Source of the DNA: an uncultured Candidatus Poseidoniales archaeon
GTDB lineage: Archaea; Thermoplasmatota; Poseidoniia; Poseidoniales; Thalassarchaeaceae
Length of the DNA stretch: 47,905 nt
Assembly (NCBI GenBank): GCA_902511005.1
Contig: CABXDN010000008.1
Span: 1-47,905, forward strand
Reading direction: 5' to 3'
Every line of letters starts with the position of its first letter. The stretch's first letter is position 1. The notes under the pieces were generated by a model. The model ran no database searches and was not told the origin of the DNA. It saw only the letters and a program-made list of their open reading frames with translations. Of this stretch, positions 646 through 6,470 are shown in pieces. The position numbers and the translations under genes are program-made.

Positions 646-670
646 CCAATTACACAAAAACTAAGATAAA

Positions 671-680
671 GTTTATTTGG
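671..680 (+). promoter_or_regulatory. Candidate TATA box for the 703 gene
   Basis: GTTTATTTGG lies 22-31 bases before the ATG at 703, the spacing expected for an archaeal TATA box driving a leaderless transcript. No Shine-Dalgarno sequence precedes the ATG. The promoter is inside the tRNA-bounded cassette, so the cassette could carry its own transcription start. Confidence 0.35.
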
Positions 681-702
681 GATTATCTCTGGGTTAACTA
701 TT

Positions 703-1809
703 ATGCAGTCCTCTTCGAAAGAAGCCTCGTGGATATCTGAACACCTAAAGGAACTGGCACAGAAGCCAGTACTATCAGAATTAAGCATGGGCGTCCTTCG
801 TGAGAAATACTTCCTTAGGCCGCACTCAGACATATCCAAAACTCAGTTTGATGATTTTAAGCTCTCCAAGCTTTACAAAACAAGTTCTGTACGAATATCT
901 AAACATCTTCAAGGCAACCCTCACATATTAATCAGAGGTGAAAAAAGAGGCAAGACCTATCGGCATAAGGAAAGTAGACCAATCTTTACTGACCAAATGA
1001 TTGCCAAAATAATCCCGGCTATTCTTCTTCCTATTCGTGATGAGATATCTTGGAATCAACTATATTATCTAACTAAGAATTGGGCTCAATTACTGCATGA
1101 AAGCTATGAAACTCATCCTGACTTTTTAGATCTTTTAGAGGACCCAGAAAAAGCGGCAAAATTCTCTACTCCGGTAATTTCCCTGGACATGGAAACCCTA
1201 TTACCAACCCTGATTGATGGCAAAAAAAACATTCAATTAGCCCTAGAAATCGATATTAATGAAACAATGACATACAGAAAAAATTTCCCATCAGAACTTA
1301 AACAATGGGTTTCCGATGCTTATTCCGATGAATGGTGGAAAAAGAGTTCATCCAATATCCAATCAATAATGAAAAAAGAAGGGAAAGTAGGCTCCGGTAG
1401 TAAGCGCGGGACATGGTTGCATACTAAACACAAATCTTCTATTGACAGTATTTTTAGTTACTTTATCGAAGGATCCTCATTAGAAAAGGCGACGAATAAT
1501 TTCAAGGATGCGATTAACCTTATCGATAAGGAATCTCAAAAACTACGTATAATTAAGGAAATTAATACTTACATGGCTAAACTCGATGTTCTTCTATTGG
1601 ATTTGTTTTCTCAACTTGAATCGGAACACCACCAATACTCAAGCGACAGATCTTCAGATTTCAGACATCTCGAGGATATATCTGACCGCTTTAATCTGGC
1701 AAAAAAAAGAATTCGGAGATTTACTCTTGAACTTCGTGCCATGTCTATCCGCGAAATAAAAACTGAGCCTTTTGCTACGGAATTACATATTAACCCCGAA
1801 ACGGATTAA
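703..1809 (+). CDS. Unrecognised cassette protein with winged-helix-like N-terminus
   Basis: I do not recognise this 368-residue protein. Residues about 25-90 look like a winged helix: helical stretches, then a beta wing reading ILIRGEKRGKTYRH. The middle (about 100-260) is mixed and rich in Trp and Lys, with a basic patch around KVGSGSKRGTWLHTKHK. The rest (about 250-350) is long helix with heptad-like spacing. There is no signal peptide or membrane segment, so it is probably cytoplasmic. It starts 57 bases after the left tRNA fragment and reads toward the structured stretch and nuclease-like gene that follow. A nucleic-acid-binding role is inference from the wing and basic patch. The start is supported by a TATA box and not by an RBS. 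Confidence 0.8.
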   Translation: MQSSSKEASWISEHLKELAQKPVLSELSMGVLREKYFLRPHSDISKTQFDDFKLSKLYKTSSVRISKHLQGNPHILIRGEKRGKTYRHKESRPIFTDQMIAKIIPAILLPIRDEISWNQLYYLTKNWAQLLHESYETHPDFLDLLEDPEKAAKFSTPVISLDMETLLPTLIDGKKNIQLALEIDINETMTYRKNFPSELKQWVSDAYSDEWWKKSSSNIQSIMKKEGKVGSGSKRGTWLHTKHKSSIDSIFSYFIEGSSLEKATNNFKDAINLIDKESQKLRIIKEINTYMAKLDVLLLDLFSQLESEHHQYSSDRSSDFRHLEDISDRFNLAKKRIRRFTLELRAMSIREIKTEPFATELHINPETD

Positions 1810-1814
1810 CCGAG

Positions 1815-2020
1815 AGATAATATAAGAAGACGCGGTCCGAGGGCTGCCCATATGAGATATGGGTCACGTCGGCATCACCGGCGTTGAGGCAAGAATCCAG
1901 TTTGTGTGCTGACGATATTGGGTGGACGAAGATCCGCTTGACTAGGCGCCTTACTGGAGGAAAAGAGCTGCTGAACACAGTTCTTCGTCGGCTCCGTCGG
2001 CGGTATGGAAGTCAGGTCTT
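1815..2020 (+). ncRNA. Candidate structured RNA between the two cassette genes
   Basis: By hand count 1831-2030 is 56% G+C, clearly above the flanking genes, and it contains no convincing ORF. Local pairings include CCCATAT/ATATGGG around GAG (1848-1864), CGTCGGCA (1867-1874) with TGCTGACG (1907-1914, one G-U), GTCC (1835-1838) with GGAC (1924-1927), GAAC-ACA-GTTC (1973-1983) inside GAGC/GCTC, and a CCG/CGG pair near the end. In AT-rich archaea such GC-rich islands usually mark functional RNA. It does not show the conserved cores of RNase P RNA or SRP RNA that I would expect. A long structured leader of the 2036 gene is the alternative. Confidence 0.4.
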
Positions 2021-2035
2021 TCGAGGTGAAAACCC

Positions 2036-3457
2036 ATGATAGAAGACAACAATAATAAATCCGCACACGTTGGTGAAAGTGGCGGAGAAAAAGTGCCAAC
2101 AAGTCCCATTAATGGGACTAATAAACTAACAATGAATGAAAGTATGAACATGATCGCTGCAACGGGATGGTACCTAACTGATGGAAACATCAGGGTAGAA
2201 CTACCTGAACAAATTGTTGAGGATATAATGTCCCGCGTTAATTCCGACGCTCAAGTTGGAATGAGCATGGCTGCAGATTTTTTCAGCAAGGCGTGGTCAA
2301 TGGGGCAGAGCTTCGGCTCAATTGCTACATTAGACCAATTCCAACATGTCGTTGATGACGGTACCAAGAAATTGGCTGAAGAACGAGACGAGTTGGCGGA
2401 GCAAGCGAAAATTGTACATGATGAAATGGTTAAAGCATTGACTGAAGCCCATACAAAGGGCAACCAAGATTCTGCTGAATTCCTCGCAAAAGCATTGTCA
2501 CAGCTTGAAGCTGTGATGAAGGCTGCGACAAATCCCAACAACACTGAGAGTTTACCTTTTGTAACAGCTCAGGTGATGCTTGAGAAATTGACAGAGGCAT
2601 TCAACAACTTCGAGTTAATGCGTAAGAAGGATGTTTCTAGTATGAATGATGCGCTCATTAAGAGCCTTCAATCATTCCACGAATCACACAACAGCTTTGT
2701 TGTTGCATTCGAAAAGGCGAATGATGCCAAGGACGAGGCTCTTTGGAAAGCTCTCGGTTTGAAGGATAAGTTGGATGAAGCGGAAGATAAATCGACCGCT
2801 AAAGGCCTAAAATTTGAAGACGCTGTCTCAGAGCATTTAACTGCTATTGCGGGACATTTTAGCGATAAATTTGCCGATGTTGGAACTGAGACCGATGGAA
2901 TTGGTAATTCCAAAGTCGGCGACCATCTTTCTACTGTAATGCATGGTACCAAGGTAGTTGGAAAAATAGTCTTCGAAGATAAGGCCGGTCAAACTTTGAT
3001 CGGTGGTGCTTCGGGAATTGTATCCCAACTTAATAAAGCCATGACAAGTTATGGAGCCGATGCAGGGATTGGAATAGTAAATTCCAAGCGTGCACCGGCA
3101 CGATTGAAAAATGCTGGATATCTTAGAACCAGTTCGAATACACATCTAGTGTGCGTGGACTGGGAAGAGAACGATTTTACGATTTTAGAAATTTTATATC
3201 CAATCGTTCGCGAAATCGTAGCTATCCAGAACGCAAATAATGCTGGGGATGACTCCAGTATTGACAGCAATGCTGTCGTTGATATCTGCGAGGAGGCATT
3301 GTCCGACCTTAAGGAGCTCAACAAGCTTAAGCTAAACCTTCGTAACACTGTTGCGAATGGGGCGCTTAATGCTGCTTCAGCGTTGGAGGTGGCTCAGAAC
3401 AAGTTTCAAGCCACCTTCCAGCGCCTAATAACGCTACATAGAGAGGTCTCTGAGTAG
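2036..3457 (+). CDS. Coiled-coil protein with PD-(D/E)xK nuclease-like domain
   Basis: This is a 473-residue soluble protein. Residues ~1-110 are mixed, ~115-260 are long charged helix (coiled coil), ~258-400 form an alpha/beta domain, and the rest is helical. The alpha/beta domain carries E261 in a GLKFED helix, D296 in KVGD and E314-x-K316 in a VVGKIVFEDK strand. This is the order of the PD-(D/E)xK nuclease fold and resembles the DUF2130-type arrangement in which a long coiled coil precedes GKI.WE.K. Later strands (ADAGIGIVNS, THLVCVDW) fit the fold core. The start has GAGGTGA six bases upstream of the ATG. As the last gene before the right tRNA fragment, it would be the effector of the cassette if this is a defence or conflict system. 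Activity is untested inference. Confidence 0.8.
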   Translation: MIEDNNNKSAHVGESGGEKVPTSPINGTNKLTMNESMNMIAATGWYLTDGNIRVELPEQIVEDIMSRVNSDAQVGMSMAADFFSKAWSMGQSFGSIATLDQFQHVVDDGTKKLAEERDELAEQAKIVHDEMVKALTEAHTKGNQDSAEFLAKALSQLEAVMKAATNPNNTESLPFVTAQVMLEKLTEAFNNFELMRKKDVSSMNDALIKSLQSFHESHNSFVVAFEKANDAKDEALWKALGLKDKLDEAEDKSTAKGLKFEDAVSEHLTAIAGHFSDKFADVGTETDGIGNSKVGDHLSTVMHGTKVVGKIVFEDKAGQTLIGGASGIVSQLNKAMTSYGADAGIGIVNSKRAPARLKNAGYLRTSSNTHLVCVDWEENDFTILEILYPIVREIVAIQNANNAGDDSSIDSNAVVDICEEALSDLKELNKLKLNLRNTVANGALNAASALEVAQNKFQATFQRLITLHREVSE

Positions 3458-3538
3458 TGACTCTAGGCCTTACTTCCATACCACTGACGGGACCGGCCTT
3501 GCCCAAATTTATCTCTAAGAAATTTATCGGGTACCGAA

Positions 3539-3564
3539 CTTCGGTTCAAGTCCGAGAGCGCGGA
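3539..3564 (+). repeat. tRNA 3'-end fragment, right copy (candidate att site)
   Basis: This copy differs from 620-645 at one base (CCGAG instead of CCGGG in the T stem, which improves pairing). It has the same T loop TTCAAGT, acceptor strand AGCGCGG and A73. No 5' tRNA half lies in front of it. The preceding bases make an inverted repeat, ACCGAA-C-TTCGGT at 3533-3545, overlapping the T stem. Together the two copies bound 2.9 kb carrying the two cassette genes. Confidence 0.7.
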
Positions 3565-3984
3565 GTAAAAAATACAAATTAAGAAAATTAAATTTCAAAA
3601 TTGTACGAAAAGATACAAGTATATTTAAGTTAAAAATACAAAAGTAAACAGGCATTCATTAATGAATCATTACGACGTATAACAATGCACGCAGGACATA
3701 TACTAACAATACTAATTGGCTTCTACGCTTCTTTCGCTATTACAGTGATGAGTGTTACGCCATTATTGGGTTGAATAACTAAAACTCAGTAATTTTACAA
3801 TATACAGTATCTAAGTTAGAAAAATTACGTTAATCGATGATTTTCTATTTTTCTAAATTCAATGCTTACAAGCTACGGATATTGTATTAACGAATGACTT
3901 CAATAGCCTCCGCTTTCAGAAATATCAATCGATGGGAGGCGTTCAGAATGCGGTTGCCCGTTGGTTATCTTGGTTGAATGAGTG
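3565..3984. other. AT-rich gap right of the cassette
   Basis: This 420-base stretch is AT-rich and has no long ORF. It contains a TATA-like run (TATATTTAAG, about 3621), a six-codon ORF at 3662, the 29-residue ORF at 3685-3774, and a weak inverted repeat GCCTCC/GGAGGC (3906-3911 with 3935-3940) that could end transcription of the minus-strand gene at 3987. Nothing else is recognised. Confidence 0.5.
3685..3774 (+). CDS. Possible 29-residue hydrophobic peptide
   Basis: An ATG opens 29 codons ending in TGA. The peptide is almost entirely hydrophobic, with one membrane-spanning stretch (ILTILIGFYASFAITVM) and no charged residues beyond His. A TATA-like sequence lies about 60 bases upstream; there is no good RBS. 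It could be a small membrane or toxin-type peptide linked to the island edge, or chance. Coding is unproven. Confidence 0.25.
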   Translation: MHAGHILTILIGFYASFAITVMSVTPLLG

Positions 3985-3986
3985 AA

Positions 3987-4370
3987 TTATGGAATTGCAC
4001 TCAATGCTAAGATCAAAAAAAGCATAACAAGGACGAAAACCAATGCGAAACCGCCAAAGAATCCAACTAAAATACCTGCTCCCATTGCATTTTTTCTTTT
4101 CGCAAACGCGAAAACACTCCAACTAATCACAAGTATAGCACTGATGAAAATCTGGAGTAGCGAATCTAGCATTAGGTTTGTAAAAATTTCAATGTAGATC
4201 AGAAGCACGATAGGCATGAAGCCAAGAGCAAGACCTCCTAGAAATTCCAATACCTTTGAACCACGTGTAACATTTGGTGCAGCGACCGACTCTTTAGTAA
4301 ACGGCGAACTAATTGTCAAATCAACACCTATCTTCAAACTCGTCGAGATGCTTTCTAACCAAGAAGTCAT
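3987..4370 (-). CDS. Small integral membrane protein, unknown
   Basis: 127 residues. A polar N-terminus of ~40 residues precedes three hydrophobic segments (about 42-64, 66-90 and 95-126), separated by a short basic loop FAKRKN. The last two segments are Gly/Phe-rich. No family is recognised and no catalytic motif is visible. It stands alone on the minus strand between the tRNA-bounded cassette and the repeat-flanked operon, with 236 bases of non-coding DNA on its 5' side. A purine-rich GGCGGGG just before the ATG may serve as RBS. It may be cargo of the same accessory region. Confidence 0.65.
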   Translation of the reverse strand: MTSWLESISTSLKIGVDLTISSPFTKESVAAPNVTRGSKVLEFLGGLALGFMPIVLLIYIEIFTNLMLDSLLQIFISAILVISWSVFAFAKRKNAMGAGILVGFFGGFALVFVLVMLFLILALSAIP

Positions 4371-4484
4371 CCCCGCCAGTCTGTATTGAACATTGATAGT
4401 TCAGTTTGGGGATGAGGAAGTGCGTCTTTCACATTCTTCCAAATCAAAGCGGCGAAGGAATCAATAAAATTAAAGTTCAAGTAA

Positions 4485-4584
4485 AGGGTAGGCACTGAAA
4501 GGGCGGACTGTAACCTCATTAATTCAGTAATTACTAACTCTTGGGTCTAAGCAGATACCCATTGATTCGTCTTTTAATCGATTA
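4485..4584 (+). repeat. 100-base direct repeat, left copy
   Basis: Aligned without gaps to 6019-6118 it matches at 74 of 100 positions, with 40 of 49 in the right half (4536-4584). The right half can form a short hairpin, TGGGT (4542-4546) with ACCCA (4557-4561), enclosing AAGCAG; the loop AAGCAG and the following CCCATTGATT are conserved in both copies. It abuts the 3' end of the minus-strand operon. It may be an element end, an attachment site or a duplicated non-coding RNA or terminator. Confidence 0.6.
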
Positions 4585-4606
4585 TGCTAAGCTTCGATTA
4601 TCGAGT

Positions 4607-5056
4607 TTATTCATAATCTTCCAGTATCTTGATAGCTTCTGATTTAACATCATTTCTTATGGCGTGGTGAGAAATATCCTTGATTAATCCTAGTCCGATC
4701 TCCTTACTTTCTAATTTAAGAACTAACCAACCAAGTGCATGTAATTCTACGGGTCTATCGCCATATATATCTGATGAGACATCAACCTTAGCAATTTTAG
4801 AGATTTCTTCCAGTGCCCAATCCCCATCCTTCTCCTTTAAAATTTCAAGGCATCTATCAAAGTATTTCATGCTATGATTTTGTGTATCGACTACAATTTT
4901 TTCATTATTATATAGAGAGCAATACTCTTTTAGATGGTGATGAGTTTTTTTGTAGGAGCCTTTGCCAGAATAAGTAACTATAGCATCACCGTAGAGTATA
5001 TCACCGCTACAAAATGAGCATTTTTGAGACCATCTTGCTGTCGCAATTTTAGGCAT
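4607..5056 (-). CDS. Zinc-finger-containing hypothetical protein
   Basis: 149 residues, no family recognised. The N-terminal 46 residues look like a zinc-binding module: C13-x2-C16 after a basic WSQK, then three His (39-41) and C46. The spacing resembles a small treble-clef/PARP-like finger used for DNA or protein binding. The remainder is predicted helical with a HEAT-like feel (helices around 60-75, 78-92, 105-122 and 128-147). It is the last gene of a three-gene minus-strand operon and starts one base after the stop of the gene before it, so it is translationally coupled. Probably cytoplasmic. Function unknown; DNA binding is a guess from the finger. Confidence 0.75.
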   Translation of the reverse strand: MPKIATARWSQKCSFCSGDILYGDAIVTYSGKGSYKKTHHHLKEYCSLYNNEKIVVDTQNHSMKYFDRCLEILKEKDGDWALEEISKIAKVDVSSDIYGDRPVELHALGWLVLKLESKEIGLGLIKDISHHAIRNDVKSEAIKILEDYE

Positions 5057-5057
5057 A

Positions 5058-5381
5058 TCAAACAGACTCCATTCTATTCTGGTATCTGTACATTTCAGTC
5101 CATACGCCCATTAATGCGTGGTGATAATCTTTCATATGGAAACATTTACTCTTAAAATTAGAGTAATCTACTTCGTCCATTTTCTGTATAATAACAGGGA
5201 TTACTTTTTCCTTCTCTATTGTAATCCTATATCTATAATCAGCATCTTCGAGTATTTCAATCTCCGATTCAGGCCATAATTTTTCTAGAACATCAGGAAC
5301 TCTGGATTTAACTTGAAAGCAATCCATTTCAGTATAGTGTTGAGCGATAGAGAAAAAGCCATCATTAGTAAAAATCCACAT
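5058..5381 (-). CDS. Conserved small hypothetical protein (MWIFTNDGFFS family)
   Basis: 107 residues. I recognise the pattern of a widespread uncharacterised family: an N-terminal WIFTNDGFFSIAQH strand pair, then a central DADYRYRI strand, DYSNFKSK and a C-terminal helix ending VWTEMYRYQ. From memory, related proteins occur in many bacteria. I know of no assigned function. The protein is small and soluble. Its ATG overlaps the TAA of a possible 21-codon ORF (TAATG), which would couple their translation. GGAGG lies nine bases before the ATG. It is the middle gene of the operon. Confidence 0.8.
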   Translation of the reverse strand: MWIFTNDGFFSIAQHYTEMDCFQVKSRVPDVLEKLWPESEIEILEDADYRYRITIEKEKVIPVIIQKMDEVDYSNFKSKCFHMKDYHHALMGVWTEMYRYQNRMESV

Positions 5382-5446
5382 TATAACGCCTCCATGGATG
5401 GTTCTGAACTAATAGTCCTATCTTGTAAATCATCTAGAATACACAT
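5381..5446 (-). CDS. Possible 21-residue coupling ORF
   Basis: In the 80-base gap between the first and second genes of the minus operon an ATG opens 21 codons whose TAA shares its last A with the ATG of the next gene. The GGAGG for that next gene lies inside it. Such a layout could couple or gate translation. No conserved peptide is recognised, and chance is possible. Confidence 0.25.
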   Translation of the reverse strand: MCILDDLQDRTISSEPSMEAL

Positions 5447-5461
5447 TATTCTATTTGCCAA

Positions 5462-5839
5462 TCAAGCCACCTCCATGCCAGGTGTAGGATTTTGCAAAGA
5501 CTCAGTGAGTTTAGGTGATGGGAAACGTTCTATTGTGAATGGATCCAACTGCAACTTAATACCTGCTAACTCGAAAGAATGAAACATACCAGCCAAGAGC
5601 GTATAGCAATCTGGATGATTACCTACAGAAAGGCATCTTACTGTATCTTTAGCGACTAGTTGTAGGCTAATACCCAACGTTTCATGATATACTTTACCCA
5701 ATTCTACCTTAGTATAACTGATCGCCCAATCTATGTTAGACTGAGCCAACTCTAACCAGTCACCGGTTAGTTCAGGTAGCCTGTCAGCTACTGCTGTTTG
5801 TTCTTCTTTCTCTCTAATTTTTTTCACTTCATTTTCCAT
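5462..5839 (-). CDS. Hypothetical protein, first gene of the repeat-flanked operon
   Basis: 125 residues, not recognised. The N-terminus is highly charged helix (EVKKIREKEEQ), the middle is helical with Trp and Tyr (WLELAQSNIDWAISYTKV), and the C-terminal third is mixed with a CLSVGNHPDCYTLL stretch carrying two Cys. There is no membrane segment. A GGAGTGGTGA ribosome binding site precedes the ATG, and an upstream palindrome and TATA box make this the lead gene. With the 107- and 149-residue proteins behind it, it forms an operon of small soluble proteins of unknown purpose lying between direct repeats. Confidence 0.7.
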   Translation of the reverse strand: MENEVKKIREKEEQTAVADRLPELTGDWLELAQSNIDWAISYTKVELGKVYHETLGISLQLVAKDTVRCLSVGNHPDCYTLLAGMFHSFELAGIKLQLDPFTIERFPSPKLTESLQNPTPGMEVA

Positions 5840-5852
5840 TTTTCACCACTCC

Positions 5853-5875
5853 AAGGTTAGGCTCCGCCTAACCTT
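5853..5875 (-). promoter_or_regulatory. Perfect 10-bp palindrome at the operon promoter
   Basis: AAGGTTAGGC and its exact complement GCCTAACCTT are separated by TCC, 13 bases upstream of the ATG at 5839. On the minus strand a TATA-like TTTAAGTA (5892-5899) would place the transcription start near 5868, inside the palindrome. That suits either a repressor operator or a hairpin at the 5' end of the mRNA just ahead of the RBS. Confidence 0.55.
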
Positions 5876-6018
5876 ATATTGTTGTCCATAGTACTTAAAC
5901 ATAACTCATCGTTGATCTCTTATGTTGATAATTATGACAATATAATGAACCGCACTCACTTTGTAAGACTGGTTCAAATGGTTACCCATTCAATCCCATC
6001 CAACCACCTCTGATTGAG

Positions 6019-6118
6019 AGGGTAGCCTCTGAAAAGGCGGATAGATAGCCGATGAGTTCAGTCTCAACAAACTAATGGGCTCAAGCAGAAACCCATTGAT
6101 TTGTCTGTTAATCGCTTA
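6019..6118 (+). repeat. 100-base direct repeat, right copy
   Basis: This is the partner of 4485-4584, in the same orientation. Its hairpin is ATGGG (6075-6079) with CCCAT (6092-6096). The stem is kept while loop-side bases change, which is mild support for a selected RNA or DNA structure. It ends 42 bases before the small membrane protein at 6161. The 320-base gap 5840-6160 holds this repeat and the palindrome; the rest shows nothing I can name. Confidence 0.6.
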
Positions 6119-6160
6119 ATCCGTACTTAGATTCATAATACCCTACTTTAGCGTCAGTCT

Positions 6161-6400
6161 ATGCGTCTAGTTAAGAGAGCATTAATCGTATGTTTAGGAT
6201 TAATAATTTCTTTCATAGGTTTAATTGTGTATAATATACCTCTAGGAGGTAGTGAAGAGTCTGCTGTCGCTGTTGATTGGTACGGCTGGATCTATTTCGG
6301 ATGGGGTGTATTCGGATGCTTTGGCTTAGGTCCTTTTGTTATTCTTTATGGGGTGTTTCACGGATTATCTTCCGAATCTAAGTTGAAAAAAGAGACATAA
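6161..6400 (+). CDS. Two-span small membrane protein, unknown
   Basis: 79 residues. After a basic start (MRLVKR) there are two hydrophobic segments (about 7-27 and 43-68), joined by a polar loop GGSEESAVAVDWYG and followed by a charged tail SESKLKKET. By the positive-inside rule both ends are cytoplasmic. No family is recognised. A TATA-like TTCATAAT (6132-6139) about 25 bases upstream and no RBS suggest a leaderless transcript. It sits between the right direct repeat and the L15e gene, at the border from accessory to core DNA. Confidence 0.6.
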   Translation: MRLVKRALIVCLGLIISFIGLIVYNIPLGGSEESAVAVDWYGWIYFGWGVFGCFGLGPFVILYGVFHGLSSESKLKKET

Positions 6401-6470
6401 TCGTAATCAAGGTCTTGGATATAGACTCATAAAGGGATGGCAAGTCGGCGACTCGCTACGAGGGATGAAT

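Follow-up and report, generated by a model that had tools for sequence, protein, structure and literature searches.

The window analyzed here, a 47,905-nucleotide stretch of a contig from an uncultured Candidatus Poseidoniales archaeon of the family Thalassarchaeaceae, contains an operon of three minus-strand genes without known families, bracketed by two diverged direct repeats that enclose only these three open reading frames (Table 1). The initial annotation had reported two 100-base direct repeats around this operon, and our analysis confirmed that observation. The two copies align without gaps at 71% identity over 115 nt, and at 74% over 100 nt with an E value of 5e-12 in a search of the whole genome, so the similarity is not due to chance. 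Both copies hold GGG-N3-AAGCAG-N2-ACCCATTGATT. We refined the boundaries with a model of the repeat family: each unit begins at a TA dinucleotide, a few bases inside the start originally given, and both copies begin with TAG. The start-to-start distance of 1,534 bp is the length of one cassette, as defined below. No Pfam or PADLOC family matched the operon, and PHROGs returned only weak families of unknown function. A second cassette opens at the second repeat, although its far end is not recognizable.

Table 1. Features of the repeat-bounded operon and its surroundings (window coordinates)
Position	Strand	Feature	Supporting evidence
4489-4609	+	Repeat copy 1, recombination-site module opening the operon cassette (TAGGCACTGAAAGGGCGGACTG...)	Family model 4e-30 in own genome; nhmmer hit with model positions 1-121
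6023-6139	+	Repeat copy 2, same module, opening the next cassette (TAGCCTCTGAAAAGGCGG...)	Family model 1e-25; nhmmer 1-117
4489-4490		Inferred crossover dinucleotide TA of junction 1 (left arm TTCAAGTAAAGGG at 4476-4488)	TAG invariant in 57 unique aligned starts; cassette exchange ends at this point in relatives
6023-6024		Inferred crossover dinucleotide TA of junction 2	As for junction 1
5983-6022	+	Far-end arm of the operon cassette, TACCCATTCAATC...GATTGAGAGGG, imperfect inverted repeat ending at the TA	Sequence; fold -12.5 kcal/mol, z -1.6 for this copy; not above chance as a class
4489-6022		Complete 1,534-bp cassette: repeat, three-gene operon, far-end arm	Inferred from junction positions and from cassettes of relatives
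5462-5839	-	Cassette gene 1, 125 aa, no known family	No Pfam, PHROGs or PADLOC match; 35% aa homolog beside a repeat in another genus (locus L175)
5058-5381	-	Cassette gene 2, 107 aa (MWIF...), no known family	71% aa homolog in the same order beside a repeat in genus g7 (L175:126-443); not found in viral contigs
4607-5056	-	Cassette gene 3, 149 aa, Cys-rich N-terminus (CSFC), no known family	Only a weak PHROG match, E 0.0015
6161-6400	+	Gene of the next cassette, 79-aa small membrane protein, start 22 bp after repeat 2	66% aa homologs likewise 20-30 bp behind a repeat in loci L081 and L085
617-649 and about 3526-3573		Fragments of the 3' end of an intron-bearing tRNA-Tyr (CGGTTCAAGTCCGGGAGCGCGGACCA)	Read by eye (ARAGORN found none); whole gene in loci L145 and L147 beside L15e
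650-3534		Looks like a separate tRNA-integrated element (genes 703-1809 and 2036-3457, of unknown function)	Absent from the nearest relative, G010

To evaluate whether the repeats are a private flanking pair, we searched the genome and its relatives for further copies, a check that the initial annotation had proposed as a possible refutation. Copies were found elsewhere: the genome (assembly of 1.3 Mb, 72% complete; hereafter G000) has six full-length sites and several partial ones, with further copies on contigs C18, C22, and C30. Yet these copies are also cassette junctions rather than a random intergenic motif. A sequence-only model built from 20 copies detected the repeat in 59 of 148 genomes of the family (Thalassarchaea, MGIIb), in all 11 genera, bunched on certain contigs and often at contig ends, whereas a DNA query found none in 23 genomes of the sister family. 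Named records with an exact repeat core are Poseidoniales and Thalassarchaeum or unclassified euryarchaeal/Thermoplasmatota bins. They include G010, which by its name, AG-319-P11, looks like a single-cell genome, so binning error is unlikely to be the source. A viral origin was not supported, since the exact repeat core was absent from viral contigs and neither the recombinase discussed below nor cassette gene 2 had viral relatives.

Next, we compared loci of different genomes. Near-identical cassettes lie in different contexts, and gene blocks stop at the first bases of the repeat, TA. The clearest case is a 1,136-bp block with an AIM24 gene, 98.9% identical between C18 of G000 and G010: the repeat is identical in both, the bases before TA are unrelated, and at the other end identity ends at AAAGGG, immediately before TA, with two different continuations. 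Similarly, one arm of a lipoprotein cassette is followed after TA by three different sequences in G006, G008, and G010. Overall, 9 of 102 interior homology-block ends fall within 8 nt of a repeat start, against 0.37 expected by random placement (maximum of 3 in 2,000 simulations). Because blocks can be counted from both sides, these nine represent about six independent events, and ends that run through the repeat are partly expected since repeats resemble each other; the cases ending from the far side (G007/G000, G006/G010, and G008/G010) do not have that weakness. A family of MRIIAPMMIL-type lipoproteins sits 20 to 26 bp behind repeats in five genomes (L082:4520-5539, L084:7679-8662, L085:4717-6036, L089:293-1477, and L091:1-783).

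At the window locus, the place upstream of the L15e gene is a hot spot. In G010, the nearest relative (97% in the L15e gene), the stretch 3795-6407 is replaced by about 930 bp, partly homologous to the cassette at the start of C18 of G000. No clean pair of empty and occupied sites in otherwise identical flanks was obtained; at the window locus, the nearest relative holds other inserts. A candidate empty site behind pyrG in genome G067 was unusable because its contig (G067:C7, locus L086) is probably misbinned: its pyrG is only 65% like those of congeners, and the assembly has three copies. Homologs of the gene that follows repeat 2 occur behind a repeat in G010 and in G084, of another genus. 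Two genes of the operon recur side by side, next to a repeat, in genus g7; in this locus (L175:120-1290, contig G161:C41), however, the homologous operon faces its repeat the other way round, which our model does not explain.

The junctions have a symmetric layout. Among 57 unique aligned starts, TAG is invariant, the right arm is conserved (GCCTCTGAAAGG; G[CG]CTCTGAAAGG), and the left flank carries clear signal only in its last 12 bases, ending GGG, as a weaker mirror-image arm (TCAGAGGG). Read outward from TA, the arms are alike (GCCTCTGA and CCCTCTGA or CCCNTNCGATT). Five repeat pairs lie head to head and overlap by exactly TA (GGCTAGCC). The other inverted junction, GGGTACCC, occurs 21 times in 115 kb of cassette loci and never in 128 kb of control loci of the same family and order. 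Of the other palindromes tested, GGCTAGCC occurs 3 times against 2 in controls, and those of like composition occur 0 to 1 times. Some GGGTACCC sites are spaced 30 to 31 bp apart, about three helical turns (L081:11755, 11786, and 11817; L084:6998 and 7029; L155:140 and 170), and some of the pieces between them are inverted copies of each other, forming mini-modules of unknown role.

The window cassette is without its own recombinase. Serine recombinases are rare in the family: PF00239 identified them in 12 of 148 genomes, and relatives of a protein encoded on C18 of G000 were found in 8. Three of the latter (84 to 97% alike) lie in three contexts and begin with the same TAGTCCGTGAGCGGACC next to the ORF start, sharing TAGTCCGTGAGCGGACCCC right at the ORF start, each preceded by a different sequence ending in GGG. 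Four more (G085, G036, G008, and G016:C17) have, within a few hundred bases upstream, a site of the repeat's layout, TA-linker-ACCC..GGGT-x-ACCC..x', with differing but complementary x and x'. Two of the eleven homologs (G100 and G170) have no such site near. The protein matches PF00239 at 1e-30, and its best solved relative is the catalytic domain of the TP901-1 integrase (1e-17). The catalytic YxRVSS motif and the arginines are invariant in eight proteins, in keeping with the nucleophilic Ser and conserved Arg of the catalytic domain of the resolvase/invertase superfamily. NCBIfam models for CcrB, XisF, and IS607 match only partly and below cut-off. On C18 (L008:1002-9217), a GIY-YIG-like gene (read by eye), the serine recombinase, and type I restriction-modification genes lie between cassette junctions; a relative of the GIY-YIG-like gene is seen next to another recombinase in locus L107.

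Taken together, our results are best explained, with reasonable though not full confidence, by a site-specific recombination system in which the repeat is the right-hand part of the site. In this view, a cassette consists of TA, the repeat of about 115 to 120 nt, one or a few genes, and a short arm ending in GGG before the next TA. Recombination at the TA would excise a cassette as a circle, with the junction GATTGAGAGGG-TA-GGCACTGAAAG in the case of the window operon, or insert it at another such site. Since TA is palindromic and both arms mirror each other (TCAGAGGG-TA-GCCTCTGA), cassettes could join in either orientation. Sequence comparison demonstrates the repeat family, its place at cassette ends, exact exchange at TA, the mirror arms, and inverted junctions sharing only TA. 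That arms keep their identity up to a shared palindromic TA is what a 2-bp staggered exchange predicts, but the recombination reaction itself, its catalysis by a serine recombinase (most likely the short Ccr/XisF/TP901-1-like proteins encoded directly behind such sites in some relatives and on C18), the mobilization of the window cassette in trans, and the existence of the circle are all inferences. The main weakness is the rarity of the candidate enzyme, present in 8 genomes against 59 with the repeat and not found in the repeat-rich G007; incomplete assemblies and action in trans may explain this, or the Xer-like protein discussed below may do the work.

The interpretation given in the initial annotation was partly supported. 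Its proposal of a small mobile unit without its own recombinase is well supported, with the correction that the unit is one repeat plus the operon plus the short arm at its far end, and that the repeats are members of a family-wide module that starts each cassette. Its alternative, an operon between two copies of a noncoding RNA, is not supported: no Rfam family matched at the gathering threshold in the window and five loci, copies occur in both orientations relative to genes, and the sharp edge is an inferred DNA crossover point. The small hairpin it described is the only helix found by RNAalifold (4 pairs, covariation term near zero). The inner hairpin H1 of the repeat shows no covariation beyond cross-pairs (P = 0.51). 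A helix around the second ACCC did better, pairing better within copies than between copies (P = 0.0002, with relatedness not controlled and some wrong-strand rows included). An additional structured-RNA role is not excluded.

Other explanations were considered. The strongest alternative, which we regard as unlikely but not excluded, is that a host Xer-like tyrosine recombinase moves the cassettes at dif-like sites, as in pdif modules or IMEX elements. All 20 repeat-bearing genomes checked have a tyrosine recombinase, mostly one Xer-like gene, and the arms TTTCAGAG and CTCTGAAA around a short center resemble an 11-6-11 layout. One 330-aa tyrosine recombinase, with an overlapping upstream ORF of about 180 aa (L159:5336-6328 in G007:C52 and L160:5389-6381 in G006:C6), lies 1.4 kb from an inverted repeat pair in G007 only. 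However, arms exchange right up to the TA and inverted junctions keep only TA in common, whereas a 6- to 8-bp overlap would be expected to share more, and the 120-nt module is much longer than dif. Less likely still, although also not excluded, the repeats could be ends of TA-targeting transposons or MITEs (IS630/Tc1 type) with TA duplications, given that TA flanks every unit and that cassette ends can be read as weak terminal inverted repeats (GCCTCTGA and CCCTCTGA). Yet the left neighbors are not random targets but carry a conserved arm, neighboring units share one TA, the two ends of a unit are very unlike in length, and no transposase was noticed on reading the loci, which did not include a search for IS630.

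Two further readings are very improbable. An integron array (CALIN) with unusual attC sites would fit the short cassettes in arrays (L008 and L081), an ORF end inside a far arm (L008:838), and the attC-like folding of some far arms (L008:189-220 and the far arm of the window cassette), but the invariant core is TAG rather than GTT in all 57 junctions, and eight tyrosine recombinases from a subset of these genomes score at most 98 bits on the integron-integrase model TIGR02249, whose cut-off is 265. The mixed orientations and the far arms, which do not fold above shuffles as a class (average z of -0.15), weigh less against it. Finally, homologous recombination between copies of a repeated noncoding RNA or leader element could draw on the repeat often ending about 21 bp before a start codon and on its first 85 nt folding somewhat better than shuffles (z of -0.95), but copies also lie at 3' ends facing the gene (window copy 1 and AIM24), and such recombination would put exchange points anywhere in the repeat, not at its first base.

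We also compared these cassettes with known systems. Integrons and CALINs likewise form arrays of small mobile cassettes with a recombination site at one end, many without a nearby integrase and with variable, mostly unknown genes; here, the core is TA(G), the arms are symmetric, both orientations are common, no IntI was found among the proteins tested, the module of about 120 nt lies at the cassette start, and the candidate enzyme is a serine recombinase. Archaeal integrons have been defined by IntI and attC sites and reported in nine phyla (Ghaly et al., PMC9668308), and the main text of that study does not mention Poseidoniales. Composite islands of the staphylococcal cassette chromosome (SCC), with Ccr serine recombinases, share the serine-recombinase family, tandem cassettes with shared sites, type I restriction-modification cargo (as on C18), and sites just behind gene ends. 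Yet the recombinases found here, of 240 to 360 aa, score 77 to 87 bits against a CcrB cut-off of 900, many cassettes are below 2 kb and lack a recombinase, the sites themselves differ, and they lie in archaea at several loci per genome, on many contigs next to different genes, rather than at a single site at the 3' end of rlmH. REP/BIME repeats with RAYT transposases are also interspersed, palindrome rich, intergenic, in mixed orientation, and have GTAG at the edge, but no Y1 (HUH) transposase (PF01797) was found in 20 genomes, against 5 of 14 controls, and the present repeats delimit mobile genes. pdif modules and IMEX elements are similarly gene modules bounded by short inverted-arm sites without their own recombinase; these cassettes differ in their 2-bp shared core and long conserved module and have not been shown to use Xer. 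Tycheposons and other tRNA-integrated elements also form marine hot-spot islands, and the window has tRNA-Tyr fragments, but those elements use tRNA sites, whereas these cassettes use their own TA sites. Charybdis elements, reported in a preprint as integrated in Poseidoniales, some next to tRNA genes, with an integrase/recombinase gene (PMC12324425), are a different element. Within the open-access library searched, we found no description of this repeat or cassette system.

Marine Group II archaea are abundant in the surface ocean and, to our knowledge, uncultivated, and how they gain and lose accessory and defense genes is poorly known. These repeats are copies of a site at which small gene cassettes appear to be swapped in and out of their genomes, much as integrons do in bacteria but with a different site and probably a different enzyme. 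It is possible, though we advance it only tentatively, that this is a third kind of gene-cassette platform beside integrons and SCC: an archaeal system with a palindromic 2-bp TA crossover and a structured site module of about 120 nt, driven by small serine recombinases that travel in the same cassettes and shuffling many unknown genes through Marine Group II. A repeat that marks the exact ends of mobile cassettes gives a search handle to list the mobile gene pool of these archaea, and the candidate enzyme, with its simple symmetric TA site, is amenable to testing in vitro. It would also show that integron-like cassette capture arose with a different recombination chemistry.
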